A DNA stretch of 64,000 bases from Nitratireductor mangrovi (GTDB taxonomy: Bacteria > Pseudomonadota > Alphaproteobacteria > Rhizobiales > Rhizobiaceae): contig NZ_CP042301.2 in assembly GCF_007922615.2 (NCBI RefSeq), forward strand, positions 1,736,001 to 1,800,000, given 5' to 3'. The notes under the pieces were generated by a model. The model worked only from the letters and a program-made list of their open reading frames with translations. It had not been told where the DNA came from and made no database searches. A program made the translations under genes and the position numbers. Each line of letters opens with the position of its first letter. Within the stretch, counting starts at the first letter, position 1. Positions 11,280 through 34,723 of the stretch are shown one piece after another.

Positions 11280-12737
11280 CTACAGCCCAAGGCCGCCGAT
11301 GCAGACATATTTGGTGTCGAGATAGTCGTCGATGCCCTGATGGCCGCCCTCGCGGCCGAGGCCCGATTCCTTGACGCCGCCGAACGGTGCCTCGACCGTA
11401 GTGATCAACCCCTCATTGACGCCAACCATGCCGTATTTCAGCGCTTCCGTGACCCGGAAGACGCGACCTAGGTCGCCGGAGTAGAAATAGCAGGCGAGGC
11501 CGAACTCGGTGTCGTTGGCCATGGCGACGGCCTCTTCCTCCTTATCGAAACGGAAGACCGGAGCGACCGGGCCGAAGATCTCCTCCTTCATGACCCGCAT
11601 GGCGGTCGTCGCCCCGGAGATCACCGTCGGCTCGAAGAATGAGCCGCCGAGTTCGTGACGCTTGCCGCCGGTGACAACCCTGGCGCCCTTCGAGGTGGCG
11701 TCGCCGATCAGTTCCTCGACCTTCTCGACGGCCTTGACGTCGATGAGCGGCCCCTGCTGGGTGCCCTCGTCGAGGCCGGCCCCGACCTTCAGCTTCTTCG
11801 ACGCCGCGGCAAGCTTGTCGACGAACTGGTCGTAGACGCCGGACTGCACGAAGAACCGGTTGGTGCAGACGCAGGTCTGACCGGAATTGCGGTACTTGGC
11901 GACCATCGCACCCTCGACTGCGCGGTCGATGTCGGCGTCGTCGAAAACGATGAACGGCGCATTGCCGCCGAGCTCCATCGAAACCTTCTTGACAGTCGAG
12001 GCCGACTTCTCGATCAGCAGCTTGCCGACCTCGGTGGAGCCGGTGAAGGTGATCTTCTTGACCAGGGGATTGGTGCAAAGCTCGTCGCCGATCTCGCCGG
12101 CCGAACCGGTGACGATGTTGACGACGCCCTTCGGAAAGCCTGCTTCCTCGCACAACGCGCCCCAAGCGAGTCCCGAATAGGGCGTCTGCGAGGCGGGCTT
12201 GACCACGCTGGTGCAGCCGGCGGCGAGGGCCGGGCCGATCTTGCGGGCCAGCATGGAGGACGGGAAATTCCACGGCGTGATCGCAGCGATCACGCCTACC
12301 GGCTCCTTGGTCACGAGGATACGCCGGTCGGCCCAGGGGCTGGGCACGACGTCGCCATAGGTGCGGCGGCCTTCCTCGGCGAACCAGAGGATGTAGGCGG
12401 CCGAGATCGCCACCTCGCCCTTCGCCTCCGCAAGCGACTTGCCCTGCTCCATCGTCAGGAGTTCGGCGAGCGCGTCCTGATTATCCATGATGACATCGTG
12501 CAGCTTCCGCAGCAGCTTGGCGCGGTCGTTGGCCGAGGTCTTCTTCCAGGAATGGAAAGCCTTTTCCGCCGCCTTGATGGCGCGCCGCGTCTCCGCCTTG
12601 CCGGATTTCGGCACGGTGCCGATCTTTTGGCCGTTGGCGGGGTTCGTCACATCGAGCGTTGCGCCGGAATCGGCCTCAACCCACTCGCCGCCGATCAGGT
12701 TGGCCTGACGCATGAAATGGCTGGTTTTCTGCAACAT
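11280..12737 (-). CDS. GabD-family aldehyde dehydrogenase; candidate sulfolactaldehyde dehydrogenase
   Basis: A 485-residue NAD(P)-dependent aldehyde dehydrogenase closest in look to succinate-semialdehyde dehydrogenase GabD. Key motifs are TPWNFPSSMLARKIGPALAAGC, the catalytic-Glu segment MELGGNAPFIVFDDADID and the catalytic-Cys segment NSGQTCVCTNRF. The C-x-C pair is the redox-switch arrangement known from GabD. A strong AGGAGG lies just before the ATG at 12737. The gene follows the ComC-like dehydrogenase by 11 bases in a five-gene run from suyA. Known sulfoglycolytic 3-sulfolactaldehyde dehydrogenases belong to this GabD-like group and produce (S)-sulfolactate, the substrate of the SlcC-like enzyme two genes upstream. 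Plain succinate-semialdehyde dehydrogenase activity is the alternative. Confidence 0.85.
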   Translation of the reverse strand: MLQKTSHFMRQANLIGGEWVEADSGATLDVTNPANGQKIGTVPKSGKAETRRAIKAAEKAFHSWKKTSANDRAKLLRKLHDVIMDNQDALAELLTMEQGKSLAEAKGEVAISAAYILWFAEEGRRTYGDVVPSPWADRRILVTKEPVGVIAAITPWNFPSSMLARKIGPALAAGCTSVVKPASQTPYSGLAWGALCEEAGFPKGVVNIVTGSAGEIGDELCTNPLVKKITFTGSTEVGKLLIEKSASTVKKVSMELGGNAPFIVFDDADIDRAVEGAMVAKYRNSGQTCVCTNRFFVQSGVYDQFVDKLAAASKKLKVGAGLDEGTQQGPLIDVKAVEKVEELIGDATSKGARVVTGGKRHELGGSFFEPTVISGATTAMRVMKEEIFGPVAPVFRFDKEEEAVAMANDTEFGLACYFYSGDLGRVFRVTEALKYGMVGVNEGLITTVEAPFGGVKESGLGREGGHQGIDDYLDTKYVCIGGLGL

Positions 12738-12748
12738 GGAAACGCCTC

Positions 12749-13765
12749 CTAGCCGCCTTTGCCGGCGGCGATGTTCTCGATGTCCTGAATGAGCGCCAAA
12801 TCGACCGGGATGCCGTCGCGCCGGAGGCGGTCACGAATAGCCTGCCGCCTTCTGCCTGGCAACCGCGCCCCTTCTGTATCGGTGACTGCCTGCGCCATCT
12901 CCGAAAAACGGGCGACCGCGCCGGCAGTTCCGAAAGCCGCCGGGTCGATGGCGATCAGGAACTGGCCGTTGGCAGGCGGCGGACCCTCGGCGTCGAAGAA
13001 CGAACTCTGCTCATAGGCGAAGTTCGCACCCGTCAATCCGGCGGCGAGCAGTTCGACCATCAGTGCCAGCGCCGTTCCCTTTGCATCGCCCAGAGGGATC
13101 ATGGTGCCGGCCAGCGCTTCCCTGGCGTCCGTCGTCGGTTGCCCGTGTCTGTCGAGCGCCCAGCCTTCAGGGATCGGCTCCTGCTTCTGGTTTGCGGCCA
13201 TGATCTTGCCGCGCGCCACCTTCGACAACGAGATATCGACGACGATCGGCTCATCTCCGGCTACCGGGCAAGCGAAGGCGATGGGGTCGGTGCCGAACAG
13301 CGGCCGCCGGCCACCCCAGGGCGCCATTGCGGCCGGCGCGTTGGCAAACATCAGCGCCGCCAGGCCATGCTTGGCGAGCGTTTCCACGGTAAGGCCCGCA
13401 ACGCCGGCATGATGCGAGCGAAAGATGCCGGCACATGCGATTCCTTGCACCGGGGTCATTGCGGCGAGTTCATCGATGGCAAGGTTCAGCGCCGGATAGG
13501 CGAAGCCGAGATTGGCATCGATATGGACCACGCCGGGACGGGGACGTGTCGCGCCCGGCGTTGCAAAGCCGTCGACCTTGCCCACGCGCGCTTGCGCCGC
13601 GTAGGCCGGCACCCGGCGCAGGCCATGCCCTCCCTGCCCGGCCAGTTCAGCCGCCACCAGCGCGTCAGCTACGGCGGTCGCGTTGTCCGGCGAGGTGCGT
13701 GAGGCCGAGAACGCCGCCACGCACAGGGCACGCGCATCGGCTACCGGGAGTGTGCGTTCGTTCAT
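12749..13765 (-). CDS. comC: Ldh-family (malate/L-lactate dehydrogenase-like) enzyme; candidate (R)-sulfolactate dehydrogenase ComC
   Basis: A 338-residue member of the NAD(P)H-dependent Ldh_2 family (YlbC/ComC/AllD), which is unrelated to classical Rossmann lactate dehydrogenases. Family motifs include GHGLRRVPAYA, the central RSHHAGVAG with catalytic His, DPIAFACPVAGDEPIVVDISLSKVARGKI partly visible, and AIDPAAFG near the C-terminus. Its ATG at 13765 overlaps the slcC stop (ATGA). In Chromohalobacter salexigens, ComC of this family reduces sulfopyruvate to (R)-sulfolactate and works with SlcC as a two-enzyme racemase. The suyA-suyB-slcC-comC gene set here repeats that set. The substrate is inferred from context; malate, ureidoglycolate or another 2-hydroxyacid cannot be excluded. 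Confidence 0.75.
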   Translation of the reverse strand: MNERTLPVADARALCVAAFSASRTSPDNATAVADALVAAELAGQGGHGLRRVPAYAAQARVGKVDGFATPGATRPRPGVVHIDANLGFAYPALNLAIDELAAMTPVQGIACAGIFRSHHAGVAGLTVETLAKHGLAALMFANAPAAMAPWGGRRPLFGTDPIAFACPVAGDEPIVVDISLSKVARGKIMAANQKQEPIPEGWALDRHGQPTTDAREALAGTMIPLGDAKGTALALMVELLAAGLTGANFAYEQSSFFDAEGPPPANGQFLIAIDPAAFGTAGAVARFSEMAQAVTDTEGARLPGRRRQAIRDRLRRDGIPVDLALIQDIENIAAGKGG

Positions 13766-14694
13766 CTATCCCCATCCAGATGCGCCAGCACGGCAGATGC
13801 AATCAGGTCGGAAACGCGCACGTTCGACTCGCGCGTCACGCCTGCGATGTGCGGCGTCAGGATCAGGTTGGCAAGGCCCTTGAACTTCGCGCCGGCTGCC
13901 GCCGTCAGCGGTTCGGTCTCGAATACGTCGAGGGCCGCTCCACCGATACGGCCACCGCGCAGCGCCGCCGCCAGCGCAGCCTCGTCAACCACTCCGCCGC
14001 GCGCGGCGTTGATCAGCACCGCATCGGGCTTCATCAGATCGAGTTGACGCTCGGCGATCATGTGGCGGGTCGCCGGGGTCAGCGGGACATGCAGGCTGAT
14101 GACGTCGGCTTGCGCCAGCATCTCGTCCAGTTCGAGGCGCTCTGTCTTGTCCCAGGCCGCATCTGACGCATCGAGATGAGGGTCGTACGCGGCCACCGTC
14201 ATGCCGAGGTCCCGCGCCCGCCTGGCGACATCCCTGGCGATTGCCCCGTAGCCGATCAGGCCCAGGAGCTTTCCCGAAAGCTCGCGCCCGACCAGCTGTT
14301 GGCGTGGCCACTCGCCGGCGGCCACCGCGGCGGTCGCCGCATATGCGCCACGTAGCAGGCTCATCGCCGAGGTGACAACATATTCAGCCACCGACAGGTC
14401 GTTGGCGCCGCTCGCCGGCACGACCTCGATCCCGCGTGCCTGACAGGCGCCCATGTCGATATTGTCGAGGCCGACCCCAAGCCGGCCGACGAAGGTCAGT
14501 GCCTTGCAGGCGGCCAGCAGATCGCCCCGCACCTGGGTGCGATTGCGCACCACGAGAACGCGGGCATCGCTGGCAGACGCCGCTAGGTCTTGCGGGCGGT
14601 CGACGAGGTCGGCGTCGTAAAGAACCGCGTACCGCTCTCCCAGGCGCTGAACCGCAGCCTCGTCCATGAACTCGGAGATGACGATATCCGGCAT
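13762..14694 (-). CDS. slcC: D-isomer-type 2-hydroxyacid dehydrogenase; candidate (S)-sulfolactate dehydrogenase SlcC
   Basis: A 310-residue NAD-dependent dehydrogenase of the phosphoglycerate dehydrogenase type. The Rossmann motif GLIGYGAIARDVARRA lies near residues 142-157. The catalytic triad is visible: Arg in NAARGGVVDEAAL, Glu in LDVFETEPL, and His in LTPHIAG. The ATG at 14694 gives MPDIVISEFMDEAAVQRL; an upstream in-frame start would add a non-homologous leader. The gene follows suyB by 114 bases and overlaps comC by 4 bases. In Chromohalobacter, SlcC oxidises (S)-sulfolactate to sulfopyruvate. The assignment rests on the conserved neighbourhood rather than on residues specific for sulfolactate, so phosphoglycerate- or hydroxypyruvate-type activity is possible. 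Confidence 0.75.
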   Translation of the reverse strand: MPDIVISEFMDEAAVQRLGERYAVLYDADLVDRPQDLAASASDARVLVVRNRTQVRGDLLAACKALTFVGRLGVGLDNIDMGACQARGIEVVPASGANDLSVAEYVVTSAMSLLRGAYAATAAVAAGEWPRQQLVGRELSGKLLGLIGYGAIARDVARRARDLGMTVAAYDPHLDASDAAWDKTERLELDEMLAQADVISLHVPLTPATRHMIAERQLDLMKPDAVLINAARGGVVDEAALAAALRGGRIGGAALDVFETEPLTAAAGAKFKGLANLILTPHIAGVTRESNVRVSDLIASAVLAHLDGDR

Positions 14695-14808
14695 GAAGTG
14701 CCTTTGTCGTTTGCCGAGCAACCGCGTACCGCTGCCGCTTAGCTTATCGGCGGAGGAGGATGGACTTTCAAGCACCGCAGGCCCCAGAGCTGAGGCCACG
14801 CCTTGATG

Positions 14809-15990
14809 TCAGGCGCTCCGATAGAGCTTCGTCATGACGAATTCGCGATGGCCGAGCGCTTCGGCGGCTGTGTTGCGGCCGTTGGCGGTCCTGACGATCA
14901 TGTCGATCAACGCGTCGCCGGCATCGTCGATGGTCATCTCGCGGCGCAGGATACCCGAGACGTCGACGTCGACATGCTCGCCCATGGTCCGGACCGTGCG
15001 CGGATTGGCGGTAATCTTGATCACCGGAACGATGGGATTGCCGATGACGTTTCCCTGCCCGGTCGGGAAGGTATGAACGACATAGCCGCCCGCCGCCATC
15101 AGCGTCACGCACTCGGCGGCCGCCGATGACGTATCCATGAAATAGAGCCCGTGGCCCGATTTCGGCTCCTCGGCCGGTTCCAGAATGTCGATATAGCGCG
15201 AGGTGCGGCCAATCTTTTCGAGATTGCCCAGCGCCTTTTCCTCGATCGTGGTCAGGCCGCCCTCGATATTGCCCTTTGTCGGCTGGCTCTCGGAGAGATC
15301 ATCGACCTTGTTGGCCTCGATCACCTCGTCCTGATAGGCCTTCCACATCCGGTACCAGCGCTCGCCGACTTCCGCAGTGGCGGCGCGCTGCTTGCAGATG
15401 TGCTCGGCCCCGGTGATCTCCGAGGTCTCGCCGAAACAGCCATAAATGCCCTCGGGCAGAAGCTTGTCGTACATGTTGCCCACGGTCGGGCACGAACCGA
15501 GACCGGTGGTGGTGTCGCTCTCGCCGCACTTTGTCGAGACCCAGAGTTCCGACACCGAGCATTCCTCGCGCTGCAGTTCGGTGGCGTAGTGCACGAACTC
15601 CTTTGCTTTGCGCGAAGCGTCCATGATCGTCTTCAGGTCGCCATTCTGCTCGATCGAAAAGCCGGCGACCGGCTTGCCGGTCTTCGCGATGCCGTCGACG
15701 ATCTTCTGAGTCCAGCCGGGCTCGATGCCGATCACCACGCAGGCGGCGACGTTGGGGTTGGCGCCAGTGCCGATCATGGTACGGAAATGCAGGTCGAGAT
15801 CCTCGCCGAACTGCAGGCGCCCATAAGCGTGCGGAAGCGCCAGCGTGCCCTTGATATTGTTGGCGACCGCTTCGCAGGCGGCATTGGAGATGTCGTCGAC
15901 CGGCAGGATCACGACATGGTTGCGCACCCCGACACGGCCATTGTCGCGCCGGTAACCATTGAAGGTCATGTTGGAATATTTCGAGGCCAT
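14809..15990 (-). CDS. suyB: UxaA-family lyase large subunit; candidate (R)-sulfolactate sulfo-lyase SuyB
   Basis: A 393-residue protein equivalent to the large C-terminal part of altronate/galactarate dehydratases (UxaA family), here as a separate subunit. It begins [20 protein letters not shown], the family's usual first strand. Cysteines likely to bind the active-site metal are seen in [21 protein letters not shown], and a later conserved block is [20 protein letters not shown] split into a ~95-residue and a ~390-residue subunit is the known arrangement of SuyAB, which cleaves (R)-sulfolactate into pyruvate and sulfite. The two dehydrogenases that follow match slcC and comC. The alternative is a split sugar-acid dehydratase; the sulfite dehydrogenase genes with a related operator favour SuyB. 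Confidence 0.8.
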
Positions 15991-16051
15991 AACCGCCCTG
16001 TCCTGAACAAAGAAATGCCGGGGCGCGCTTAACGCGCCGCGCGCCCCGGGC

Positions 16052-16339
16052 TTACCAGCGTTTCGTCTTCAGATTGTGGACGTGGACATGTCCCCCTTTG
16101 CCCACGTCGGCGACGAAACGCCCGATATCCTCGCCGTATTTGATTGCCGTATCGCCGTTGCTGAGGTCACTGAGTGCCACCTTGTGACCGATCGGGACGT
16201 CGTCCCTGGCCTCGATCTCGAAGCTGGAATCGTCCTCCGTGACGACCGCGAGCATACGGGTTCCGGCCTTAAGCCCCTCGACCACTACCACACCGACATT
16301 GTCCTTGCGGTCGTGCACGAGAAGCTGCGGAATCGGCAT
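16052..16339 (-). CDS. suyA: UxaA-family lyase small (SAF-domain) subunit; candidate SuyA
   Basis: A 95-residue SAF-domain protein corresponding to the N-terminal domain of altronate dehydratases. It starts [22 protein letters not shown] and ends [14 protein letters not shown], the typical end of the small subunit. The ATG at 16339 has GGGGGA eight bases upstream. An earlier in-frame ATG at 16390 would begin inside the palindromic operator and is rejected. suyB starts 61 bases after its stop. It is the first gene of the run suyA-suyB-slcC-comC-gabD-galM, and its promoter region is shared with the divergent GntR regulator. SuyA and SuyB together would release sulfite from (R)-sulfolactate. Confidence 0.8.
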
Positions 16340-16374
16340 GCGGTCCCCCGGTAGTCGGACATCTGGCGGATGAA

Positions 16375-16388
16375 GTCTTATATAAGAC
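16375..16388. promoter_or_regulatory. Perfect 14-bp palindromic operator between suyA and the GntR gene
   Basis: GTCTTATATAAGAC is its own reverse complement. It lies 36 bases upstream of the suyA start and 73 bases upstream of the regulator start, in the divergent promoter region. A partial second copy (ATAAGATATAA) follows directly at 16390-16400. The same 15 bases, AAGTCTTATATAAGA, occur upstream of the PfkB kinase gene at 23303-23317, and a related site precedes soeA at 34744-34761. The AT-rich palindrome stands out in very GC-rich DNA. The likely binder is the adjacent GntR/UTRA regulator, with autoregulation; this is inference. Confidence 0.85.
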
Positions 16389-16460
16389 ATAAGATATAAA
16401 AATCTGGCAAAGTCAATCGCGACTGGCTAGAAAAACCCGGTCCGAAACAGGGATTCGGCG

Positions 16461-17192
16461 ATGAACGAAAGCGCCCCGGCAGCATTCGCCTACAAGCCCC
16501 TTTATGTGCAGGTGAAGGACCAGCTGGTCCGCCGGATGATCGATGGCGAATGGCAGCCCGGTCAGCTCATCCCCTCCGAGATGGAGCTTGCGCGCCAGGT
16601 CGGCGTCAGCCAGGGCACCATCCGCAAGGCGCTCGACGCCATGACAACGGAAAACCTGCTGATCCGGCGCCAGGGCCGCGGCACGTTCGTCGCCAGCCCC
16701 GAGGAAAGCCGCATCCTGTTCCAGTTCTTCCGGATCGTCCCAGACAGCGGCGAGACCACGTTTCCGGACTCGCGCGTTTTGACCAGCGCGAGGTCTGTCG
16801 CCGAGGGCACGGAAGCCGAGGCCCTCGGTATCAGGGAAGGCGACGATCTCTGGCGCTTCGAGCGGGTGCGCGCCATCCGCGACGAGCCGGTGCTGGTCGA
16901 GACGATCCGGCTGCCCGCCGACCGTTTCCCGGGCTTCGGCGATCTTCCTCAGATTCCCAACAACGTCTACGGGCTCTATTCGCAGCGTTGGGGCATCACC
17001 ATCGCGCGCGCCAGCGAAAGGCTGAAGGCGGTAGGAGCGACCGCCGGTGACGCCGCGCGTCTTCGCTGCGCCAGGGGCGATCCGCTACTCGAGATCACGC
17101 GGATCGCCTACGATCTGGAGAACAAGCCGGTTGAACTGCGTGTCTCGCGCTGTCTCACCCGTACCACGCACTACACGTCGGAACTGCGATGA
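16461..17192 (+). CDS. GntR-family transcriptional regulator with UTRA domain (HutC subfamily)
   Basis: A 243-residue regulator. The N-terminal winged helix (about residues 12-78) includes PLYVQVKDQLVRRMIDGEW, the recognition-helix region LARQVGVSQGTIRKALD and the wing LLIRRQGRGTFVA. The C-terminal UTRA effector domain (about 95-240) has the usual LWRFERVRAIRDEPVLVE and NVYGLYSQRWGI segments, and probably binds a small metabolite, here perhaps a sulfosugar or its phosphate. It is divergent from suyA, with a perfect palindrome in between that recurs at two more promoters in the window. This makes it the best candidate for the local repressor of the sulfosugar/sulfite regulon. Effector identity is unknown. 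Confidence 0.9.
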   Translation: MNESAPAAFAYKPLYVQVKDQLVRRMIDGEWQPGQLIPSEMELARQVGVSQGTIRKALDAMTTENLLIRRQGRGTFVASPEESRILFQFFRIVPDSGETTFPDSRVLTSARSVAEGTEAEALGIREGDDLWRFERVRAIRDEPVLVETIRLPADRFPGFGDLPQIPNNVYGLYSQRWGITIARASERLKAVGATAGDAARLRCARGDPLLEITRIAYDLENKPVELRVSRCLTRTTHYTSELR

Positions 17193-17199
17193 ACGCGTT

Positions 17200-18150
17200 T
17201 CAGCCGAACACGACCTGCAGCACGAACAGCCAGAACGAGGCCGTGAGCACCGCGCTCGACGTGGCGATCATCATCGCATTGGTGGAAATGGCGTGGCCGG
17301 TGCCGAACTGCACCGCGATCAGGTAGGCGTTGACGCCGGTCGGCAGTGACGCCGTGATCACAGCGACCTGGGCGGCGAGCGGCGACAGGCCGAACAGAAG
17401 CGCCAGCGCCAGTGTTACCGCCGGCATCACCAGAAGCTTGAGGCCGGCAAGCGCCATCCCCGCCCTGACGTTCCCCGAAATGCCGTAACGGCGCATCGAG
17501 AGCCCGATCGAAAACAGCGCCAGCGGCCCGGCGATGCCCGCGAGCGCATCGACGAAACGAACCCCGAGCGCCGGCAGTTCAAGCCCTGCAAGGCGGAAGG
17601 TTAGTCCGACGGCGATGCCGATCAACAGCGGGTTGCGCACCAGCTTGGCCACAAAGTCCTTCGCCAGGGCCAGTGGCTGCACGCCACCCTCGCCGCTGCC
17701 GTCGAGGATGGCGAAGATAATGATCGAGGCCGCCATCATCACTGCGAGATGCACCGAAACGATCAGGGCGAGGATCTCGAACCCCTTCTGGCCAAAGACG
17801 CCCAGCACCAGCGGGATACCGAGCAGCACCGTGTTGGAGAAGGAGGCCGACACACCTCCAACGACGCCGGCGCGCGCGTCACGGCCGAAAACGCGGGTGG
17901 TGACGAGATGGCCCAGCGTCCAGGCGACGGCGACCGACGCGAAATAGGTGCCCCACAGCGACCAGGGCGCCGCACCGTGGAAATCCGCGCTCTGCATGGT
18001 GCGGAACAGGAGCAGCGGAAGCGCCACCGACACCGCGAATTCGGCCAACGCGTCGCCAGCCTCCGCCTTCAGATAGCCGGTGATGCCGGCGAGATAGCCG
18101 ACGGCAACGAGCCCGAAGATGAAAAGGACGGCTTCGACCTGGGGAGACAT
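17200..18150 (-). CDS. AEC-family transporter (auxin efflux carrier / malonate permease type)
   Basis: A 316-residue integral membrane protein with about ten transmembrane helices. It opens MSPQVEAVLFIFGLVAVGYLAG and has the internal NTVLLGIPLVLGVFG and TGVNAYLIAVQFG segments, typical of the AEC (MdcF/YfdV/auxin efflux) family. The family moves organic anions, mainly by secondary transport. The ATG at 18150 is chosen; the frame extends upstream into non-homologous sequence overlapping the next gene. It ends 8 bases from the end of the convergent GntR gene and lies 52 bases downstream of the Gfo/Idh gene. In this context it may carry a sulfonated anion such as sulfolactate, or export a product. 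The substrate is not visible in the sequence. Confidence 0.8.
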   Translation of the reverse strand: MSPQVEAVLFIFGLVAVGYLAGITGYLKAEAGDALAEFAVSVALPLLLFRTMQSADFHGAAPWSLWGTYFASVAVAWTLGHLVTTRVFGRDARAGVVGGVSASFSNTVLLGIPLVLGVFGQKGFEILALIVSVHLAVMMAASIIIFAILDGSGEGGVQPLALAKDFVAKLVRNPLLIGIAVGLTFRLAGLELPALGVRFVDALAGIAGPLALFSIGLSMRRYGISGNVRAGMALAGLKLLVMPAVTLALALLFGLSPLAAQVAVITASLPTGVNAYLIAVQFGTGHAISTNAMMIATSSAVLTASFWLFVLQVVFG

Positions 18151-18202
18151 CAACGCCTGATAGGCGAGCCGCAGCGTACCGGCAAGGCATCGCTGACCGA
18201 TG

Positions 18203-19303
18203 TCACAACTCGACCGCCCGCCCGGTCCTGGCACTTTCCTCGGCTGCTGCGCCGATCATCACCGCGCGCATCCCGTCTTCGAGCGAAACCTCGGGATTTC
18301 CGCCATTGCGCACCATGTCGAGGAACTTTCGGTGCTGGAAGAAGGTCGAGCCGTGATGATCGCCGGCCGCAAGGATGTCGGCGTCGACATGGATCTCCTC
18401 GCGGACCGGCACCTTGCTGGCGCGAGGCGAAAAGACAATCTCGGAAAGGCGCTCGCGCCCATCCGGGGAAAACCGCGCGGGACCAGGCACGAAGGCCTCG
18501 ACGCGCGCGAGGTCGCCGGTTGCCGCGATCTGTTCCTGCCAGTACGAGCCTTCCGCGAACATGCACAGGTCGAGCATCGCGCGCACGCCATTGTCGAAAT
18601 CGACGACGACGAAGGCATTGTCGAGGATATCGGCGGCACGGCCATCATAGCTCTCGCCGACGAAGTTCACGTCCATGGCGCCCGAAGCGTAGACGCGTAC
18701 CGCCTCGCCGCCCGCCATCAGCCGCATCAGATCGAAGAAATGGCAGCATTTTTCGACCAGCGTACCGCCGGTACGAACGGCGAAACGGTTCCAGTCATCG
18801 ACCTTGTCCAGGAACGGATAGCGATGCTCGCGGATCGCGATCATGCGCAGCCGTCCCGCGTCGCCTGCCTGCAGGCGCGAAATCAGCCGCTCGACCGGCG
18901 GCATGTAGCGATATTCCATCGCCACCCAAGCCGGCGCCTTCGCCGTTTCCGCAATGCGCAGGATGTCGTGGCAATCTTCGACGGTCGCGCAGAGCGGTTT
19001 TTCGACAAGCACCGGCTTTCCCGCAACGAGGACGTCGCGCAGGATCGCCGCGTGGGTGTCATTGGGGCTGGCGATGACCACGCAGTCGAACCCGCCGGCA
19101 CTCAGCAATTCCCTGTGGTCGGGAAACTGCACGCCAGCAAAGCCTGCTTGAGACACGCCCGCCCGGCTCTCGGCATTTGGATCGGCGATCGCGACAATCT
19201 CGGCGCCGTCGAGAAGGCCGATATTGCGCATGTGTTCGCGGCCCATCATCCCTGCGCCGATAATGGCGTAGCGCACCGTCGCTGGACGAGATTCAGAGGT
19301 CAA
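18203..19303 (-). CDS. Gfo/Idh/MocA-family NAD-binding protein; candidate NAD-dependent sulfoquinovosidase or sugar dehydrogenase
   Basis: A protein of about 366 residues with an N-terminal Rossmann domain (RYAIIGAGMMGREHMRNIGLL) and the family motif VLVEKPLCATVEDCHDI containing the EKP lysine. The C-terminal Gfo/Idh domain includes EYRYMPPVERLI and GTLVEKCCHFFDLMRLM. The start is uncertain. A TTG at 19303 overlapping the isomerase stop gives a normal-length leader, a GTG at 19276 is shorter, and an ATG at 19360 would overlap the upstream gene by 68 bases. It lies between the isomerase and AEC genes on the same strand. Family members are sugar dehydrogenases, but an NAD-dependent sulfoquinovosidase group has also been described from this superfamily, which would fit this cluster. 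The sequence alone does not decide. Confidence 0.75.
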   Translation of the reverse strand: MTSESRPATVRYAIIGAGMMGREHMRNIGLLDGAEIVAIADPNAESRAGVSQAGFAGVQFPDHRELLSAGGFDCVVIASPNDTHAAILRDVLVAGKPVLVEKPLCATVEDCHDILRIAETAKAPAWVAMEYRYMPPVERLISRLQAGDAGRLRMIAIREHRYPFLDKVDDWNRFAVRTGGTLVEKCCHFFDLMRLMAGGEAVRVYASGAMDVNFVGESYDGRAADILDNAFVVVDFDNGVRAMLDLCMFAEGSYWQEQIAATGDLARVEAFVPGPARFSPDGRERLSEIVFSPRASKVPVREEIHVDADILAAGDHHGSTFFQHRKFLDMVRNGGNPEVSLEDGMRAVMIGAAAEESARTGRAVEL

Positions 19304-20747: not shown

Positions 20748-21302
20748 ATGCTTCGCACCTTCATCATTCTCGCCGCGACCTTGCTTGCCGCACCCGCCCC
20801 GGCGACGGAGGCCGGCTGGGCGCTGCTTCGCGGCGGCGGCCAAGTCGTCCTGCTGCGCCACGCCTATGCGCTGGGCACCGTCGAGCCGCCCAATTTCGAC
20901 ATCGAGAAATGCAACACCCAGCGCAATCTTTCCGAACGAGGCCGACATCAGGCACGGCGCATCGGCTCGCTGATCGCGGCGCGCGGCGCGCCGGTCGAAA
21001 AGGTGCTTTCGAGCCGCCTGTGCCGGGCGCTGGATACGGCCCGCCTTGCCTTTGGCACTGGCGCGGTGGAGGAATTTGTGCCGCTCGACCCGCCGCCGGA
21101 AGACGAGGTCGCGGCCAGGGCGTCGCTGCTCGAGACCGTCGAGGCCGTGCGCGCCTATGGCGGATCCGGCAACATGGTGCTCGTTACCGACCTGGCCAAT
21201 ATCAAGGCGCTGACCGGGCGCTCGGCACGCGAGGGCGAGGCACTGATCGTCGCGCCTGACGAGGAAAGCCTGGTGGTGCTTGGCCGCATCGTATTCAACT
21301 AG
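20748..21302 (+). CDS. Exported histidine-phosphatase-fold protein with altered second catalytic residue
   Basis: A 184-residue protein with a cleavable-looking signal (MLRTFIILAATLLAAPAPATEA), followed by a histidine phosphatase fold. The phosphohistidine motif is VVLLRHAYALG (RHA instead of RHG) and the conserved SRLCRALDTA segment is present. The second catalytic histidine, expected in a VLVTH-x-x-NI motif, is Asp here (MVLVTDLANIKALTG), so catalytic activity is doubtful. The ATG at 20748 follows CAGGAAG. It lies on the opposite strand between the isomerase and aldolase genes, interrupting the sulfosugar cluster; it is divergent from the isomerase (39 bases between starts) and convergent with the aldolase. 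A much longer open frame upstream is antisense to the isomerase gene. Confidence 0.8.
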   Translation: MLRTFIILAATLLAAPAPATEAGWALLRGGGQVVLLRHAYALGTVEPPNFDIEKCNTQRNLSERGRHQARRIGSLIAARGAPVEKVLSSRLCRALDTARLAFGTGAVEEFVPLDPPPEDEVAARASLLETVEAVRAYGGSGNMVLVTDLANIKALTGRSAREGEALIVAPDEESLVVLGRIVFN

Positions 21303-23250: not shown

Positions 23251-23304
23251 GTCGCGCGGTTTCGGTTCAGGGGTTTCGGCCATGCGGCGACGCCAACCTA
23301 GCAA

Positions 23305-23318
23305 GTCTTATATAAGAT
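23305..23318. promoter_or_regulatory. Second copy of the palindromic operator, upstream of the kinase-aldolase operon
   Basis: GTCTTATATAAGAT differs from the suyA palindrome at the last base only; with the two preceding bases, 15 consecutive bases are identical (AAGTCTTATATAAGA). It lies 55 bases upstream of the kinase start, at a distance expected for an operator overlapping the promoter or transcript start. Such an AT-rich identical match 7 kb away in GC-rich DNA is very unlikely by chance and points to joint control with suyAB. Confidence 0.83.
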
Positions 23319-29210: not shown

Positions 29211-29223
29211 CCCTGAACGAACA

Positions 29224-30198
29224 GTGACGACCACGTTCAAAAGCCTCTCGCGCCAGCTGTTCGCCCGCCTGCGCAACCGCACCCGGATCGCCAACTACTG
29301 GCTGATCGCCCAGGTCACGCTCGGTTTTCTGCGCCTGCTGCGGCTGCTGCCCGCCGAACGGGCTTTGAACTTCGTCGACCGGGCGGCGCGGCGGGTCGGT
29401 CCGCTAGCCGGTCGCCATCGCACCGCGATCGGCAACCTGCGCGCCGCCTATCCGGACAAGCCCGACGCGGAACTTGAACGGATCGCATCCGACATGTGGG
29501 CCAACATGGCGCGGCTGGCCGGCGAGTATGTCTTTATCGAAAAGCTGCTCGGCGAACAGGACGGAGACGAACTGCCTGCACGCGTGGAGGTCGTCGGCGC
29601 CGAGCTTTTCCTCAGACTGCGCGACGACCCGAGGCCGCGCATCATCTTCACCGCGCATCTCGGCAATTTCGAACTGCTGCCGATCATGGCGGCCCGCTAC
29701 GGCCTCGCCGTCAGCGCACTCTTTCGCGCGCCCAACAACCCCTTCCTGGCAGCCGAGCTACTCGAAAACCGCGAAGGCTCGATGGGCGACCTGATTGCCT
29801 CGCGCCAGGGCTCTGTCTTCGCGCTCGCCCGCGTGCTTGAAGGCAATGGCAATATCGGGCTGCTTGTCGACCAGAAATTCGTCGATGGCGTTCCGACCAC
29901 CTTCTTCGGGCGCGAGTGCCAGTCAAGCCCGGTGCTGGCGAGGTTGGCGCGTCAGTTCGATTGCGACGTGCACCCTGCCCGCTGCACGCGGCTGCCCGGC
30001 AACCGTTTCCGGATCGAACTTGAGGAAGCAATCGAATTGCCCCGCACCGCAAAGGGCCGCGTCGACGTCCAGGCCGCGACCCAGATGGTCAACGACATCG
30101 TGGAAGCCTGGGTTCGCGACGATCCCGGTCAGTGGATGTGGTTCCACCGCCGCTGGGAGATGAAAAGCTGGAAGAAGCAGCCTCCGGTGCGGGCCTAG
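29224..30198 (+). CDS. lpxXL: Lipid A very-long-chain acyltransferase LpxXL (HtrB/LpxL family)
   Basis: A 324-residue member of the LpxL/HtrB acyltransferase family, which transfers the long hydroxy acyl chain from AcpXL to lipid A at the inner membrane. A single N-terminal membrane-associated segment (NYWLIAQVTLGFLRLL) is followed by the catalytic HX4E motif HLGNFE (His145, counting from the GTG at 29224), the GLLVDQK motif and a conserved tail QWMWFHRRWE. A TTG at 29203 overlapping the adh stop is an alternative start adding seven residues. It ends the lipid A cluster and overlaps the end of the convergent soeC by 4 bases. Confidence 0.88.
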   Translation: MTTTFKSLSRQLFARLRNRTRIANYWLIAQVTLGFLRLLRLLPAERALNFVDRAARRVGPLAGRHRTAIGNLRAAYPDKPDAELERIASDMWANMARLAGEYVFIEKLLGEQDGDELPARVEVVGAELFLRLRDDPRPRIIFTAHLGNFELLPIMAARYGLAVSALFRAPNNPFLAAELLENREGSMGDLIASRQGSVFALARVLEGNGNIGLLVDQKFVDGVPTTFFGRECQSSPVLARLARQFDCDVHPARCTRLPGNRFRIELEEAIELPRTAKGRVDVQAATQMVNDIVEAWVRDDPGQWMWFHRRWEMKSWKKQPPVRA

Positions 30199-31121
30199 CC
30201 GCCATAATAATTCATGACCGCGTGGCGCGCCTCCGCGAAGAAGAGCCAGCGCTCAACAAGCATGCCGGCGGCATGCGACAGGGCGGCCAGGAAGGCCAAT
30301 GCCGCGGCACCTGCACCAGGCGCCGGCACGACCGAGGCCAGGAGCGCGATCAGCAGCAACGGGAGCACGCCTCCAAGGATCACCGCGATCACGGCCAGCT
30401 TGGCCGCGTGCTTGCGGGCGACGCGAAAACCCATCTCGCGGGTGAGGTAGTTCTCGGTCATGTGTGGCCGTTCCAGAAGGCGCACGCGGCCAATGTTCCC
30501 CAGTCCGGTGGCACTTTCCGGGCTCGACGGCGATACTAGGCGGCGCATCCGCGTTCGCCAGACAAGCTTGATCGCCCATGCCACGACCAGGAGGATAAGC
30601 GCGAGGAAGGCCGGCACTCCGGCCGCACCGCCGCCCGCCGCTGCGAACAACGTGGCAAGCACCGCGCCGCCGGCACCCGCAAAGCAAAGGAACGCCGCCG
30701 GCGTCAGCGGCGTATGCCAGGCCTCGACGGTGCGTAGCGAGGCGTAGATCATGGCGGTGCAGTAGACCGTGACGACGCAGCAGGCCGAACCTGCGAGCCC
30801 TACCGGCAACGAATAGCGCCCCTCGAACAGCGCCAGCCACGCCGAGACGCAAAGCGGCACGAAGCTGACGATCGCCATCACGCCCTCCCGCGACAGCCAG
30901 CTCGAACGCCATTGCGACAGCGCCCGCCACGCCCGTTGCGGGTTGCCGAGATGAAGTGTCGACGAAAGCAACCCTCCGGCGATCAGGGCGAGCGCCATCA
31001 GATGCGCCAGCTTTGCAGCCAAGGTTTGGGGATCGAGCAGCCCGAGGCCGAGCATGAACGCAAGGCCGTAGCCGAGCCCGGACGACGTGGTGAAAACGAT
31101 GATCGACAGCGCGGGATGCAT
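30195..31121 (-). CDS. soeC: DmsC/SoeC-type membrane anchor subunit
   Basis: A 308-residue membrane protein with about eight transmembrane helices. It begins MHPALSIIVFTTSSGLGYGLAFM and ends ERWLFFAEARHAVMNYYGG, the end typical of DmsC-like anchors of molybdenum oxidoreductases. It would bind quinone and hold the catalytic and iron-sulfur subunits on the cytoplasmic face. Its start directly abuts the soeB stop (31122), so it is the last gene of a soeA-soeB-soeC operon. SoeC is known from cytoplasmic sulfite dehydrogenases of purple bacteria and Ruegeria. Confidence 0.85.
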   Translation of the reverse strand: MHPALSIIVFTTSSGLGYGLAFMLGLGLLDPQTLAAKLAHLMALALIAGGLLSSTLHLGNPQRAWRALSQWRSSWLSREGVMAIVSFVPLCVSAWLALFEGRYSLPVGLAGSACCVVTVYCTAMIYASLRTVEAWHTPLTPAAFLCFAGAGGAVLATLFAAAGGGAAGVPAFLALILLVVAWAIKLVWRTRMRRLVSPSSPESATGLGNIGRVRLLERPHMTENYLTREMGFRVARKHAAKLAVIAVILGGVLPLLLIALLASVVPAPGAGAAALAFLAALSHAAGMLVERWLFFAEARHAVMNYYGG

Positions 31122-31886
31122 TCAGAGCCGGTCCAGCATGCCGTCCAGCCAGGCGAAGAAGCCCGCAGCGCCGCTCGTATCTTCTCCCACGCGCCCGGGT
31201 GCCCGCGACGCCAGGCTCGTGCGCGGACGGGGAGGCAGATATTTGTTCACCGGGCGCGTGCCTTGCTCCGGCATCAGGTCGACGCCGCCCCGAGCCGCAA
31301 CCATTTGCGAGACATCCGAATCAGGATCGCCGAGGTCGCCGAAATGGCGGGCATTGGCCGGGCATGTCCGCACACAGGCGGGCACGCGGTCGGCCTCCTC
31401 GAAGGTCTCGTTGTAGATGCGGTCGACGCATAGCGTGCATTTCTTCATCACGCCGGCGGCCAGGTCCATCTCGCGCGCGCCATAGGGACAGGCCCAGGCA
31501 CACAGCCCGCAGCCGATGCATTTGTCCTCGTCGACCAGCACGATTCCGTCGCTGGCGCGCTTGTAGGACGCGCCCGTAGGGCACACGGTCACGCAAGGCG
31601 CCTCCTCGCAATGCAGGCAGGATTTGGGGAAGTGGACGATGCGCGCGTCGCCGGCCTCGCCGACGATGTCGGCGCCTTCCGGTGTCACCTCGAAGGTGTG
31701 GATGCGATTCAGCCAGGCGCCGGAGACGTTTTCGCCATAGGGCTCCTGATCGGAGAGGGCAGCGCCGTAGCCGCCGGTGTTCCACTCCTTGCAGTTCACC
31801 ACGCAGGCATGGCAGCCGACGCAGACGTCGAGATCGATGACCAGCCCGAGCTTCTTCGCTGTCGACGAGGAAGGAAGCGACGTCAT
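31122..31886 (-). CDS. soeB: Four-cluster iron-sulfur subunit (SoeB-type)
   Basis: A 254-residue electron-transfer subunit of the DmsB/NrfC type. Four ferredoxin-like cysteine groups can be read in order: CVGCHACVVNC; CLHCEEAPCVTVCP; CIGCGLCAWACPYG; and CTLCVDRI with the later CVRTCP. There is no signal peptide, consistent with a cytoplasmic complex. The ATG at 31886 overlaps the soeA stop (ATGA); the open frame further upstream overlaps soeA and is not family-like. It relays electrons from the molybdenum subunit to the membrane anchor and the quinone pool. Confidence 0.88.
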   Translation of the reverse strand: MTSLPSSSTAKKLGLVIDLDVCVGCHACVVNCKEWNTGGYGAALSDQEPYGENVSGAWLNRIHTFEVTPEGADIVGEAGDARIVHFPKSCLHCEEAPCVTVCPTGASYKRASDGIVLVDEDKCIGCGLCAWACPYGAREMDLAAGVMKKCTLCVDRIYNETFEEADRVPACVRTCPANARHFGDLGDPDSDVSQMVAARGGVDLMPEQGTRPVNKYLPPRPRTSLASRAPGRVGEDTSGAAGFFAWLDGMLDRL

Positions 31887-34723
31887 TTGCTCCACTCCTG
31901 TCCGTAGCGCAGTTCTGCGGGTCCCTCGGCCGCCCGCTCGACCGGCGGAAACTGCGGTTCGGACATCTCGCCTGGTTCGGCCTTCTCGATCCTGACCCGC
32001 AAATCGTACCAGGCAGCCTGCCCCGTGACCGGATCGGAGTTCGACCATCTGAGGCCGTCGCCCTTCGGCGGCAGCAATTCGTGGATCAGGTGATTGAGCA
32101 GGAAGCCCTCCTTCGCCTCCGGCGCGTTTGCAGCAAGCGCCCAGGCTCCCCTGCGTTTGCCGATCGCGTTCCAGGTCCAGATCGTCGCGGCGTTGACCGC
32201 TTCCATGCGCGCGACCGGCACCTTGATGCGCCCGTGCGGCGAAATCAGCCAGGCCCAGTCGCCGTCGACGAGGCCGGCTTCATCGCAGACCGGACCGGGA
32301 ACGTAGAGCGGATTCGAGGTGTGAATCTGCCGGAGCCAGGCGTTCATCGAGCCCCAGGAATGATACATCGCCGCCGGCCGCTGGGTGATGGCATGATATG
32401 GGAAGCTCTTCCTGTCGATCGCTTCCTCCTCCAGCGGTCGGTACCAGCACGGCAGCGGGTCGAAGCTTGCCAGTATGCGCGCGCGATGGCTTTCCGGCGC
32501 CACCGGCTCCCGCGCGCCCTCTGCCGACAGGCGAAACTTTTGCAGCGTCTCCTGGTAGAGTTGGAAGGTCACCGGCTGCGGCTGGTCGAAAAAGCCCAAC
32601 CGCACCGCGAAATCCTGATAGGCGCGGTTGGCGTGTTTGAAGAACTGCGCCTCTTCCGGAATGTGGTGGACGAAGAAGGAACCGTTCTCGACATAGCGCG
32701 CCAGCTGGTCGGGGTTGATGGCCCCACGTCCCGTGCGGTCGCCTTCCGATCCACGAAAGCCGGCCAGCGGTCCGATCCCCGGCCGTCGCTCGTGACGCAC
32801 GATGTAGTCGGCGTAGTCGCGATAGAGTGCGGTGCCGCGATTGTCGACGAAGCCCGGCAGCTTCAGCCGCGCGCCAAGGTCGAGCAGCACGGACTGGAAG
32901 CCTCTCACGTCACGGTCTGGATCGACCACCGGCCAGCGGATCGCATCCTGCACCGCATCGGGCTCCGAGATCGGCCGGTCCAGCATCGAGATGCAGTCAT
33001 GGCGCTCCAGATAGGTGGTATCGGGCAACACCAGATCGGCATAGGCCGTCATCTCGGAAGCGTATGCGTCGGCAACGATGATCTTGGGGATGCGGTATTC
33101 GCCGGTCGCCTCGTCCTTGTCCTCCAGCATGGCGATGACGCCGCCGGTGTTCATGGAAGAATTCCAGGCCATGTTGGCCATGTAGAGGAACAAGACGTCG
33201 ACCGGATACGGATCGCCCGCGTGCGCGTTGGAAATTACCATGTGCATGAGGCCGTGGGCAGAAATCGGCGCGTCCCACGAAAACGCCTTGTCGATGCGCG
33301 CCGGGTACCCCTGCTCGTCGACCAAAAGGTCCTCGGGACCGCGCGGAAAGCCCAGATGTGGTCCCGCGAGCGGCTGCGACGAGCCGAAATGTTCGGCCTT
33401 GCCGTGAGGGCGCGGATGCGCCTCGACCGGCTTCGGATAAGGCGGCTCGTAGCGGAAGCCGCCGGGGCAGTCGATCGCGCCGATCAGCACCTGCAGGAGA
33501 TGCAGCGCGCGCGCCGTCTGGAAGCCGTTGGAATGGGCCGAGATGCCTCGCATGGCATGAAACGAAACCGGACGGCCGACGAACCCGTCATGGCGCCGAC
33601 CCTGCATGTCGGTCCAAGGCTGATGGATGAAGATTTCTTCATCGAACGCAACGCGTGCGATCTGGGCGGCAAGCCCGCGAATGGTGTCGGCGGCCACCCC
33701 GGTTTCTTCCGCGACCCGTTCCGGCGCATAACGCTCATCCAGGTACTTTTCCGCCAGAAGCTGGAACGAAGGCACCGCGAAGCGCCCGTCGGCAAGTTCG
33801 AAACGCCCCGACAGCGCCGGCCGCGCGCCTTTCTGGTCATGACGGACCGGCTGCTCGGTCACGGTCTCCCAGACCAGGGCCCTTCCTTCCCGGTCGCGCG
33901 CGAAGAGGCCGTGCTCACCGGTTCCCGGCGCGTCGATGACCAGCCAGGGCGCGTTCGAATAACGTAGCAGATAGTCGACATCGATCCGGCGCGCCTTCAG
34001 GAGTTCGTGCACGAGCGACAGGATCAGGAGCCCATCGGTGCCGGGCCGCACCCCGATCCAGTTGTCGGCGATCGCGGAATAGCCGGTGCGCACCGGATTG
34101 ACCGAGACGAAGCGCGCGCCACGGCTCTTCAGCTTCGAGATGCCCAGTTTCAACGGGTTGGAATCATGATCCTCCGCCACCCCGAACAGGATGAACAGCT
34201 TCGTTCGCTCCCAGTCGGGTGCGCCGAACTCCCAGAACGCACCGCCAATGGTCATGATGCCGGCGGCCGCCATGTTGACCGAGCAAAAGCCGCCATGGGC
34301 GGCGTAATTGGGCGTGCCGAACTGCTGCGCCCAGAAGCTGGTCAGGGCTTGGCTCTGGTCGCGGCCGGTAAAGAAGGCAAGCTTCTTCGGGTCCCTCTGG
34401 CGCGCCTCGCCCATCCATTCCGTGGCAAGCTGAAGCGCTTCTTCCCACGAGATGTGCCGGAATTGGCCGGCACCGCGCGGCCCGGTGCGCAGCATCGGCG
34501 CCGACAACCGCGCCGGCGAATAATGCTGCATGATCCCGGCCGAGCCCTTGGCGCACAATACGCCACGATTGACGGGATGGTCGCGATTGCCCTCGATATA
34601 GCGGACCTTGCCGTCCTTGAGGTGAACGTTGATGCCGCACCGGCAGGCGCACATGTAGCAGGTGGTCTTGCGCACCTCGTCGCCGACCGGCTCCGACAGC
34701 GCAAGGCGCGGCTCGCGACTCAT
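31883..34723 (-). CDS. soeA: Molybdopterin oxidoreductase, candidate sulfite dehydrogenase catalytic subunit SoeA
   Basis: A 946-residue member of the DMSO reductase superfamily, matching the usual SoeA size. The N-terminal [4Fe-4S] cluster is bound by Cys22, Cys25, Cys29 and Cys57 (CYMCACRC and GVLCAKG). A likely molybdenum ligand is Cys147 in HGGFCSVNMAA. There is no Tat signal, so the enzyme is cytoplasmic, as known for SoeABC, whereas DMSO or thiosulfate reductases of this superfamily are exported. The C-terminal domain shows SFPYHAITQRPAAMYHSW. GGAAGGGAG precedes the ATG at 34723. A palindrome related to the suyA operator lies 21 bases upstream. SoeABC oxidises sulfite to sulfate, which fits removal of the sulfite released by SuyAB. 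Other oxidoreductase substrates are possible. Confidence 0.85.
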   Translation of the reverse strand: MSREPRLALSEPVGDEVRKTTCYMCACRCGINVHLKDGKVRYIEGNRDHPVNRGVLCAKGSAGIMQHYSPARLSAPMLRTGPRGAGQFRHISWEEALQLATEWMGEARQRDPKKLAFFTGRDQSQALTSFWAQQFGTPNYAAHGGFCSVNMAAAGIMTIGGAFWEFGAPDWERTKLFILFGVAEDHDSNPLKLGISKLKSRGARFVSVNPVRTGYSAIADNWIGVRPGTDGLLILSLVHELLKARRIDVDYLLRYSNAPWLVIDAPGTGEHGLFARDREGRALVWETVTEQPVRHDQKGARPALSGRFELADGRFAVPSFQLLAEKYLDERYAPERVAEETGVAADTIRGLAAQIARVAFDEEIFIHQPWTDMQGRRHDGFVGRPVSFHAMRGISAHSNGFQTARALHLLQVLIGAIDCPGGFRYEPPYPKPVEAHPRPHGKAEHFGSSQPLAGPHLGFPRGPEDLLVDEQGYPARIDKAFSWDAPISAHGLMHMVISNAHAGDPYPVDVLFLYMANMAWNSSMNTGGVIAMLEDKDEATGEYRIPKIIVADAYASEMTAYADLVLPDTTYLERHDCISMLDRPISEPDAVQDAIRWPVVDPDRDVRGFQSVLLDLGARLKLPGFVDNRGTALYRDYADYIVRHERRPGIGPLAGFRGSEGDRTGRGAINPDQLARYVENGSFFVHHIPEEAQFFKHANRAYQDFAVRLGFFDQPQPVTFQLYQETLQKFRLSAEGAREPVAPESHRARILASFDPLPCWYRPLEEEAIDRKSFPYHAITQRPAAMYHSWGSMNAWLRQIHTSNPLYVPGPVCDEAGLVDGDWAWLISPHGRIKVPVARMEAVNAATIWTWNAIGKRRGAWALAANAPEAKEGFLLNHLIHELLPPKGDGLRWSNSDPVTGQAAWYDLRVRIEKAEPGEMSEPQFPPVERAAEGPAELRYGQEWSK

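Follow-up and report, generated by a model that had tools for sequence, protein, structure and literature searches.

A shared operator suggests complete sulfoquinovose degradation by a single alphaproteobacterium, Nitratireductor mangrovi

The DNA stretch analysed here, 64,000 nucleotides of Nitratireductor mangrovi (contig NZ_CP042301.2, positions 1,736,001 to 1,800,000; "the window" below), contains a sulfosugar gene set that spans about 25,000 bases and is predicted to convert sulfoquinovose (SQ), a sulfur-containing sugar of plants, to pyruvate and sulfate. Because one short DNA site precedes the SQ genes, suyAB, soeABC and an unlinked importer operon, their common regulation by a single regulator is suggested, and therefore a single cell could do a job that is usually described as needing two species. 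We consider it probable that this set of operons under one operator allows a single alphaproteobacterium to import SQ glycosides and to degrade them fully to dihydroxyacetone phosphate (DHAP), pyruvate and sulfate.

The best evidence for one pathway is the palindrome TCTTATATAAGA, found ahead of the kinase gene and of suyAB and, in a form altered at two positions, ahead of soeABC. Its three sites in the window (exact at 16376 and 23306, two mismatches at 34747) compare with 0.05 expected and with 0 of 100 shuffles. Exact cores number three in the 4.86-Mb genome, for which a Markov model with the composition of the window expects 0.002-0.004, and four places genome-wide match GTCTTATATAAGAC with no more than two mismatches, three of them within the window. 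The 12-base core was present with at most one mismatch in all 25 gntR/suyA intergenic regions compared. When sites with at most one mismatch were collected from 99 sources, 71 of 75 were located at the projected starts of kinase, gntR/suyA/suyB, TRAP, mutarotase or soeA genes; since the sources were chosen for these genes, this figure gives specificity inside loci and not a genome-wide frequency. A site precedes the kinase in 16 of 16 loci having a GntR of at least 45% identity, compared with 7 of 54 loci without a GntR in view.

The GntR protein encoded beside suyA is the predicted regulator of this operator. The assignment is made by linkage, because the operator is unlike the published HutC consensus (PMC4494728; here and below, statements on cited papers refer to the parts of them that were available). 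The BioR site TTATMKATAA of the same paper was also rejected as the operator, differing by two inserted bases. A looser match with one core mismatch at C1:1257620 was ignored, because a control with the reversed pattern gave 2 matches per strand against 4, and no weight was given to 14-mer matches with at most three mismatches (18 against 44 in the control). On a Sinorhizobium mexicanum plasmid, a second exact core (L125:7008) lies 2.7 kb from the suyA core with no labelled gene, and may control sulfofucose genes of that species.

The front end and the SuyAB block lie within 10213-23304 of the window, and SoeABC lies 7 kb beyond. Two operons are predicted there on the minus strand: kinase, aldolase, isomerase, SqgA and AEC permease in that order (23304 to 17200), and suyA, suyB, slcC, comC, gabD and mutarotase (16390 to 10213) with intergenic gaps of 61, 9, -4, 11 and 53 bp. 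The soeABC genes run from 34723 to 30195 on the same strand. An earlier note on this DNA had placed candidates for every intracellular step of a sulfosugar-to-sulfate pathway in one region. All of them are indeed present in the region as uninterrupted open reading frames (ORFs) with family matches. They do not form a single cluster, since a tRNA-Arg gene and then a block of lipid-A and very-long-chain fatty acid genes (24084-30198; with the tRNA gene 23601-30198) separate soeABC from the kinase operon. Two genes had been overlooked, those of SqgA and of the aldose 1-epimerase (mutarotase). The features are listed in Table 1.

Table 1. Sulfosugar genes, operator sites and interspersed genes of the window
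Feature	Position	Strand	Basis or remark
Aldose 1-epimerase (mutarotase), last gene of the predicted suyAB-led operon	10213..11226	-	PF01263, 243 bits
GabD-type aldehyde dehydrogenase, predicted sulfolactaldehyde dehydrogenase	11280..12737	-	TIGR01780, over cut-off
ComC-like Ldh_2 dehydrogenase, predicted half of sulfolactate racemase	12749..13765	-	NF040650, 181/500 bits; context
SlcC-like 2-hydroxyacid dehydrogenase, predicted other racemase half	13762..14799	-	Generic families; linkage
Putative SuyB, (R)-sulfolactate sulfo-lyase large subunit	14809..15990	-	PF04295/PF20629; C. pinatubonensis match
Putative SuyA, small subunit	ORF 16052..16390	-	48% over 91 aa to C. pinatubonensis gene
Operator, exact TCTTATATAAGA, between suyA and gntR	16376..16387	.	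Motif match
GntR (PhnF/HutC-like), divergent from suyA, predicted regulator of the operator	16461..17192	+	
AEC-family permease, last gene of the predicted kinase operon	17200..18234	-	TIGR00946, 102/246 bits
Putative SqgA, GH188 NAD+-dependent sulfoquinovosidase	18203..19360	-	PDB matches; conserved residues
SftI/SqvD-like putative sulfoquinovose isomerase	19293..20708	-	NF048012; AlphaFold model fold
PRK06193-like histidine phosphatase, between aldolase and isomerase	20748..21302	+	Thought to be outside the pathway
LacD/PRK12858-type class I aldolase, predicted sulfofructose-1-phosphate aldolase	21311..22429	-	PRK12858
Putative YihV-type sulfofructose kinase (PfkB)	22354..23304	-	E. coli sulfofructose kinase similarity
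Operator, exact TCTTATATAAGA, ahead of the kinase operon	23306..23317	.	Motif match
SoeC candidate, DmsC/NrfD membrane anchor	30195..31121	-	Family match
SoeB candidate, 4Fe-4S protein	31122..32048	-	Family match
SoeA candidate, molybdopterin oxidoreductase	31883..34723	-	Family match
Operator, 2 mismatches (TCCTATAGAAGA), about 30 bp before soeA	34747..34758	.	Motif match

According to the proposed route, SQ or an SQ glycoside would enter through an ABC importer whose genes stand at another place of the genome, and SqgA, of glycoside hydrolase family GH188, would free SQ from the glycoside. The FucI-fold isomerase would convert SQ to sulfofructose, the YihV-type kinase would phosphorylate this to sulfofructose 1-phosphate, and the LacD-type aldolase would cleave the product to DHAP and sulfolactaldehyde. 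The GabD-type enzyme would then oxidize sulfolactaldehyde to (S)-sulfolactate, which SlcC and ComC would invert by way of sulfopyruvate to (R)-sulfolactate. SuyAB would split (R)-sulfolactate into pyruvate and sulfite, and SoeABC would oxidize sulfite to sulfate, passing the electrons to quinone. The GntR protein would occupy the operators until released by a pathway metabolite, perhaps sulfolactate.

For the front end, the glycosidase gives the clearest comparison. Its best PDB matches are 8qc2 and 8qc3 at about 400 bits, the former being the GH188 crystal structure (PMC11465081); a putative oxidoreductase, 8zn9, follows with 383 bits, and the other dehydrogenases listed score at most 80. The catalytic residues K107, Y136, E189, H193 and H321 (ArSqgA numbering) are kept with the correct spacing, and so are the sulfonate contacts R166, L170 and K172 as well as E164, for which the source of the catalytic and sulfonate-binding residue list prints Glu163 (PMC10755693). 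All nine residues checked are present, and none of them varies across the 68 aligned rows (the window protein with 67 locus homologues). By similarity and active-site residues, the protein is assigned to GH188 SqgA. The L-fucose-isomerase-like isomerase proposed in the earlier note is borne out by the L-arabinose/L-fucose isomerase fold of its AlphaFold model (predicted local distance difference test, pLDDT, 90), the class in which SqvD has been placed (PMC9594981). Its sole NCBIfam match, NF048012 (sulfoquinovose isomerase SftI), is nearly full length but below the cut-off (244 bits, cut-off 700).

The YihV-type kinase likewise stands. Its best solved relative, at 221 bits against 162 for the second, is the E. 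coli sulfofructose kinase, with which it shares 124 of 295 alignment columns (42%), and by this comparison it is of the YihV type of the sulfo-Embden-Meyerhof-Parnas (sulfo-EMP) pathway. Its true start is probably at 23250, inside the ORF. The aldolase had been called YihT/LacD-type. It is LacD-like, matching PRK12858 with 344 bits (cut-off 184); it is not a YihT orthologue, and is placed by similarity in another branch of the YihT superfamily, nearer tagatose-bisphosphate (TBP) aldolases, from where a YihT-like function may still be exercised. The 602-bp gap between aldolase and isomerase holds the opposite-strand histidine phosphatase gene, which has a signal-like start and lies inside the kinase operon. 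The ORF 20718-21314 on the minus strand was rejected as a pathway gene; it is antisense to the phosphatase and is matched in G248 and G265 (genomes and loci are designated by G and L numbers).

For the back end, SuyAB could be compared with a known pair. SuyB is 69% identical to the gene in the SuyB position of the hpsNO plasmid cluster of Cupriavidus pinatubonensis HN-2, and SuyA is 48% identical to its neighbour; the two HN-2 genes are adjacent and each is annotated just as UxaA family hydrolase. Among the best 40 of 246 plasmid records, the next identities of SuyB are 61% (Rhodococcus) and then at most 40% for other UxaA-family hydrolases. By these matches, SuyA and SuyB are a putative paired sulfolactate sulfo-lyase, an enzyme whose biochemistry comes from C. 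pinatubonensis strain JMP134, named in PMC9594981. The true start of suyA is probably near 16339, because the operator overlaps the first codons of the ORF. In gene content the locus fits extended sulfoglycolysis, as SuyAB shares a cluster with the predicted sulfoglycolytic genes. GabD, SlcC and ComC are not assignable by score alone. The gabD gene follows comC by 11 bp in the operator-led operon, and its nearest paralogue in the same genome is 45% identical. The SlcC-like protein matches generic families only, and the ComC-like protein scores 128 bits against the L-sulfolactate dehydrogenase of the PDB, its fourth best match; the racemase role is predicted for both because they are linked to SuyAB.

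The soeABC genes form an operon of molybdenum protein, iron-sulfur protein and NrfD/DmsC anchor, as in a putative sulfite:quinone oxidoreductase SoeABC. The start of SoeA is without a twin-arginine motif and therefore fits a cytosolic SoeA, which is how the protein is annotated in R. pomeroyi (PMC4334477). Among 120 listed homologues, two are named SoeA (JGI) and the rest molybdopterin oxidoreductase, anaerobic dehydrogenase or formate dehydrogenase. The tie of soeABC to the SQ genes is drawn from the operator in its promoter and not from its position. Thirteen of 25 SQ-positive genomes have an operator with at most two mismatches ahead of soeA (8 of 16 in one genome set, 3 of 7 in another, G115 and the window), versus 1 of 35 others (0 of 13 with SuyB, 1 of 20 without SuyB, 0 of 2), giving a Fisher probability of 1e-5. 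For this comparison, 300 or 750 bases upstream of soeA were scanned. SoeA was present in 16 of 17 genomes searched, and 35 of the 99 SoeA-positive genomes without a close isomerase were examined. From the 11 genomes of the order with isomerase, SuyB and SoeA together, the window, G115 and seven others were used, while G029, where soeA is directly behind suyB, and G267, where soeA is in two pieces, were left out. The five Hoeflea genomes examined have no soeA site, four outright and H. poritis with three mismatches.

Co-occurrence was counted in 397 genomes of the order, the window's own included, of which 32 have the isomerase, 86 SuyB and 110 SoeA. Two SuyB matches at 34-35% (G206 and G226) were dropped, leaving 84, and the 12 genomes with an isomerase below 50% were counted apart. 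Where the isomerase reaches 50% identity, SuyB accompanies it in 18 of 20 genomes; of the other 377 genomes, 66 have SuyB (Fisher 2e-11). Counted by genus, the former figure becomes 13 of 14, and none of the 12 genomes with a more distant isomerase has SuyB. SoeA is found in 11 of these 20 genomes against 99 of 377, and all three proteins occur together in 11 of the 20.

Linkage was examined in 80 loci, kept from 342 isomerase relatives obtained by a scan of genome contigs. Relatives of the aldolase, kinase and SqgA stand beside the isomerase in 76, 72 and 68 of these 80 loci, respectively, and because they recur in this way the gene set is not due to chance. A relative of SlcC is found in 48. 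A search for the same gene set in related genomes, as the earlier note had proposed, was successful: 9 of the 80 loci (Nitratireductor, Hoeflea and others) combine kinase, aldolase, isomerase, SqgA, SlcC, ComC and SuyAB in a stretch of about 10 kb, and G287 and G354 have the gene order of the window minus the AEC permease. Nitratireductor alexandrii and N. arenosus share the window's gene order and carry the operator at the four corresponding kinds of position. Most of the set is present in G378, G230 and G093. G378 and G230 have no kinase match above 60 bits, G230 also having no SqgA match; in G093 the Suy block has a different arrangement and again no kinase match exceeds 60 bits.

Several further observations were made on isomerase relatives. 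G273 and nine other f44/g76 genomes (L022-L030, G175) have an isomerase of 44-46% identity and SuyB in 0 of 10, and distant TRAP genes stand beside the isomerase at the f44/g76 locus L121; these loci perhaps serve a different sugar or lead to another end product. A 33.9-kb plasmid of Zymomonas mobilis (H41-H44) encodes an isomerase 39% identical to that of the window. A gene resembling MauG/di-haem cytochrome c peroxidase is present in 43 of 80 isomerase loci (L042-L110), mostly just before the kinase. In the window, a distant MauG-like relative (27%) lies at 7502-8833, beyond the mutarotase, and is also found in G248 and G265.

The third exact core, at C1:3203585, precedes an operon for a binding protein, two permeases, a MalK-type ATPase and a GH31 enzyme (C1:3196500-3203507; L136:501-7508), with an FCD-type GntR gene just upstream. 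The binding protein is matched (1e-60) in 10 of 14 isomerase-bearing genomes, nine at 70-92% identity and G400 at 44%, versus 0 of 5 genomes of the same family without a close isomerase. The operator lies 71-93 bp upstream of the operon in 8 of the 10 matching genomes, G404 and G400 being without it. Regions were taken for 8 of these 10 genomes, and the whole ABC+GH31 operon is present in all eight regions of these SQ-positive relatives, with the operator in seven. The GH31 enzyme was considered as a YihQ and rejected, because other GH31 enzymes (up to 244 bits) outscore YihQ (about 104 bits). A second type of transporter, with the TRAP protein DctP, is encoded in 53 of 80 isomerase loci.

Another back end was found behind the same front end. 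Thirteen of the 80 loci, L047, L054 and L110 among them, have SlcC followed by a sulfopyruvate decarboxylase pair (ComDE); five of the thirteen are from Shimia. In the one locus scanned, L110, the gene pair is over the NCBIfam cut-offs for sulfopyruvate decarboxylase subunits. The ComDE pair is absent from all 15 loci that have SuyA or SuyB. Among the first 50 genomes, taken from the 80 loci by rank, SuyB is encoded in 36, an Xsc above its cut-off also in 36, and at least one of the two in 47, the background rate of Xsc being unmeasured; the exceptions are G403, whose SQ contig ends at suyA, G421 and G441. Xsc also serves taurine breakdown. We tentatively propose, at somewhat less than even confidence, that one-cell SQ mineralisation is widespread in Alphaproteobacteria and modular: a constant front end (SqgA, FucI-type isomerase, YihV-type kinase, LacD-type aldolase) would be joined to interchangeable desulfonation back ends, namely SuyAB and SoeABC under the TCTTATATAAGA regulon in Hyphomicrobiales and ComDE with Xsc in Roseobacter-type genomes, and the ABC+GH31 operon would be a new importer of SQ glycosides with a sulfoquinovosidase outside the YihQ clade.

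Several points weigh against complete SQ degradation by one cell. The catalytic steps are predicted, and the pathway is read from genes. The weak point is the aldolase, which is of the LacD/tagatose type, scoring 61 bits with YihT versus 143 with TBP aldolase and 319 with the uncharacterised 8tnf. The isomerase and ComC scores are far under their NCBIfam cut-offs, and the operator does not fit the available HutC consensus. Shared ancestry was not removed from the statistics. On the import side, the ABC binding protein is without a match in 4 of 14 genomes and reaches just 44% in one, the GH31 enzyme falls outside the YihQ clade by PDB score, and no near homologue of the TRAP binding protein turned up in the genome of the window (best DctP 27%). 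The remaining points concern resident genes and soeABC and are taken up with the alternatives.

One alternative is that the front end yields sulfolactate while GabD, the mutarotase and SoeABC are ordinary residents of the site, so that sulfite or sulfolactate would be released and not oxidized via this SoeABC. G248 and G265, of the same family, carry the mutarotase, GabD, AEC permease, lipid-A genes and SoeABC at the same site without SQ genes (elsewhere, G265 encodes relatives of the isomerase at 32% and of the kinase at 43% identity), and since they are present there, the nearness of gabD, mutarotase, AEC and soeABC to the SQ genes proves nothing by itself. The same stretch of G248 and G265 matches the ORF antisense to the histidine phosphatase, so that SQ genes look interleaved with residents. 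Moreover, SoeA is encoded in more than a quarter of genomes lacking an isomerase of at least 50% (the 99 of 377 above), and 12 of 25 SQ-positive genomes have no operator at soeA. However, the operator at about -30 from soeA is kept at the same distance in six relatives (two Nitratireductor, two Aquibium and two metagenome-assembled genomes) and was not found at the corresponding site of G248 and G265. The position of gabD in an operator-led operon, and the closeness of SoeABC to SuyAB in G029, G211 and G120, which belong to three other genera, also speak for the complete route, and we regard separate residents as unlikely.

The substrate could instead be another sulfosugar such as sulfofucose, which the FucI-like isomerase would convert to sulfotagatose, the LacD-like aldolase cleaving sulfotagatose 1-phosphate to the same sulfolactaldehyde. 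The tagatose-bisphosphate type of the aldolase agrees with this, as this aldolase class tolerates either C4 epimer. The suy cluster of Paracoccus wurundjeri, which grows on sulfofucose and not on SQ, has PF00294 and PF01791 genes, and the operator also occurs in the suy cluster of Sinorhizobium mexicanum, a species on the sulfofucose list of the same paper (PMC12421959). On the other hand, the kinase and aldolase of P. wurundjeri are not significantly raised on sulfofucose, its route being Entner-Doudoroff (PMC12421959), and in the window a GH188 SqgA with its SQ and sulfonate contacts intact is encoded in the same predicted operon. This makes a substrate other than SQ quite improbable. That the cluster serves only non-sulfonated compounds, by tagatose or fucose plus altronate or galactarate breakdown, is hardly credible, even though the automatic names (UxaA family hydrolase, tagatose 1,6-diphosphate aldolase, L-fucose isomerase C-terminal domain) point that way. 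The kinase and SqgA match sulfosugar enzymes ahead of sugar enzymes, SuyAB match the hps-suy pair, and Shimia-type loci place sulfopyruvate decarboxylase behind the same front end (over cut-offs in the one locus scanned); the tagatose/altronate reading was rejected on the kinase, SqgA and SuyAB comparisons. The earlier note had named, as what would refute it, placement of the kinase and aldolase in tagatose pathways and of the UxaA-like pair with sugar-acid dehydratases. Of these the aldolase does fall with the tagatose type, and the kinase and SuyAB stay with the sulfo-type. Its reading of a pathway from sulfosugar to sulfate is supported by the kinase, the SuyB comparison, GH188 SqgA and the operator shared by front end, suyAB and soeABC.

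Its claim of novelty was too strong, because clusters joining sulfoglycolysis to SuyAB are already known (PMC11465081, PMC9594981), as is a tandem sulfofucose pathway (PMC12421959). The nearest are the actinobacterial GH188 clusters "Y160" and "Y158", each proposed from one representative cluster, and PMC11465081 calls this near-identical gene list a possible new sulfoglycolytic pathway. Y160 shares with the window the fucose isomerase, sulfofructose kinase, sulfofructose-phosphate aldolase, sulfolactaldehyde dehydrogenase, a phosphoglycerate-dehydrogenase gene, SuyAB and GH188. The ABC genes are inside the cluster in Y160 and Y158, whereas the genome of the window would rely on the unlinked ABC+GH31 operon for import. 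The window further differs from both in having the usual Leu and not Tyr at the sulfonate loop, a ComC-like gene, SoeABC and the GntR/operator regulon, and in belonging to Alphaproteobacteria. In Thermotogae and Chloroflexi, the sulfoglycolytic transaldolase (sulfo-TAL) clusters also unite sulfoglycolysis with SuyAB, but by a transaldolase route, while the window has a kinase and class I aldolase route with predicted sulfite oxidation (PMC9594981).

Paracoccus wurundjeri resembles the window in having SlcC, ComC and SuyAB beside a sulfosugar front end, and its sulfite release has been shown; it differs by its Entner-Doudoroff sulfofucose front end and by lack of growth on SQ. The coexistence of the whole sulfofucose-to-sulfite tandem is called unusual in that paper, whose main text, as available, is without the terms SoeABC and GntR (PMC12421959). 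The sulfo-EMP pathway of Arthrobacter AK01 shares SqgA, kinase, aldolase and the sulfolactaldehyde dehydrogenase GabD/SlaB, but has a YihS-type isomerase and excretes sulfolactate, desulfonation being unreported in the available parts of PMC10755693 and PMC8873060. Alphaproteobacterial GH188 clusters have been named for Jannaschia faecimaris and a Paracoccaceae bacterium (PMC10755693), and hybrid sulfo-EMP1/2 enzyme sets are already known (PMC12890257). In the literature searched by title and start of abstract, no description of this regulon or of a sulfo-EMP cluster with ComDE was found. Four features were not met in these prior descriptions, as far as they were available: regulation by GntR and the operator, the link to soeABC, an ABC+GH31 operon at a distance from the cluster, and ComDE in place of SuyAB after a common front end.

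SQ ranks with the most abundant organosulfur compounds (PMC12890257). Its breakdown by sulfoglycolysis is commonly portrayed as divided among species. If the present reading is true, many Alphaproteobacteria would close the SQ route alone by the kinase/aldolase path. The operator would provide an inexpensive way to recognise the whole pathway in genomes, and it points to the importer and to a second glycosidase. In addition, the regulon suggests what SoeABC may do physiologically in these genomes.

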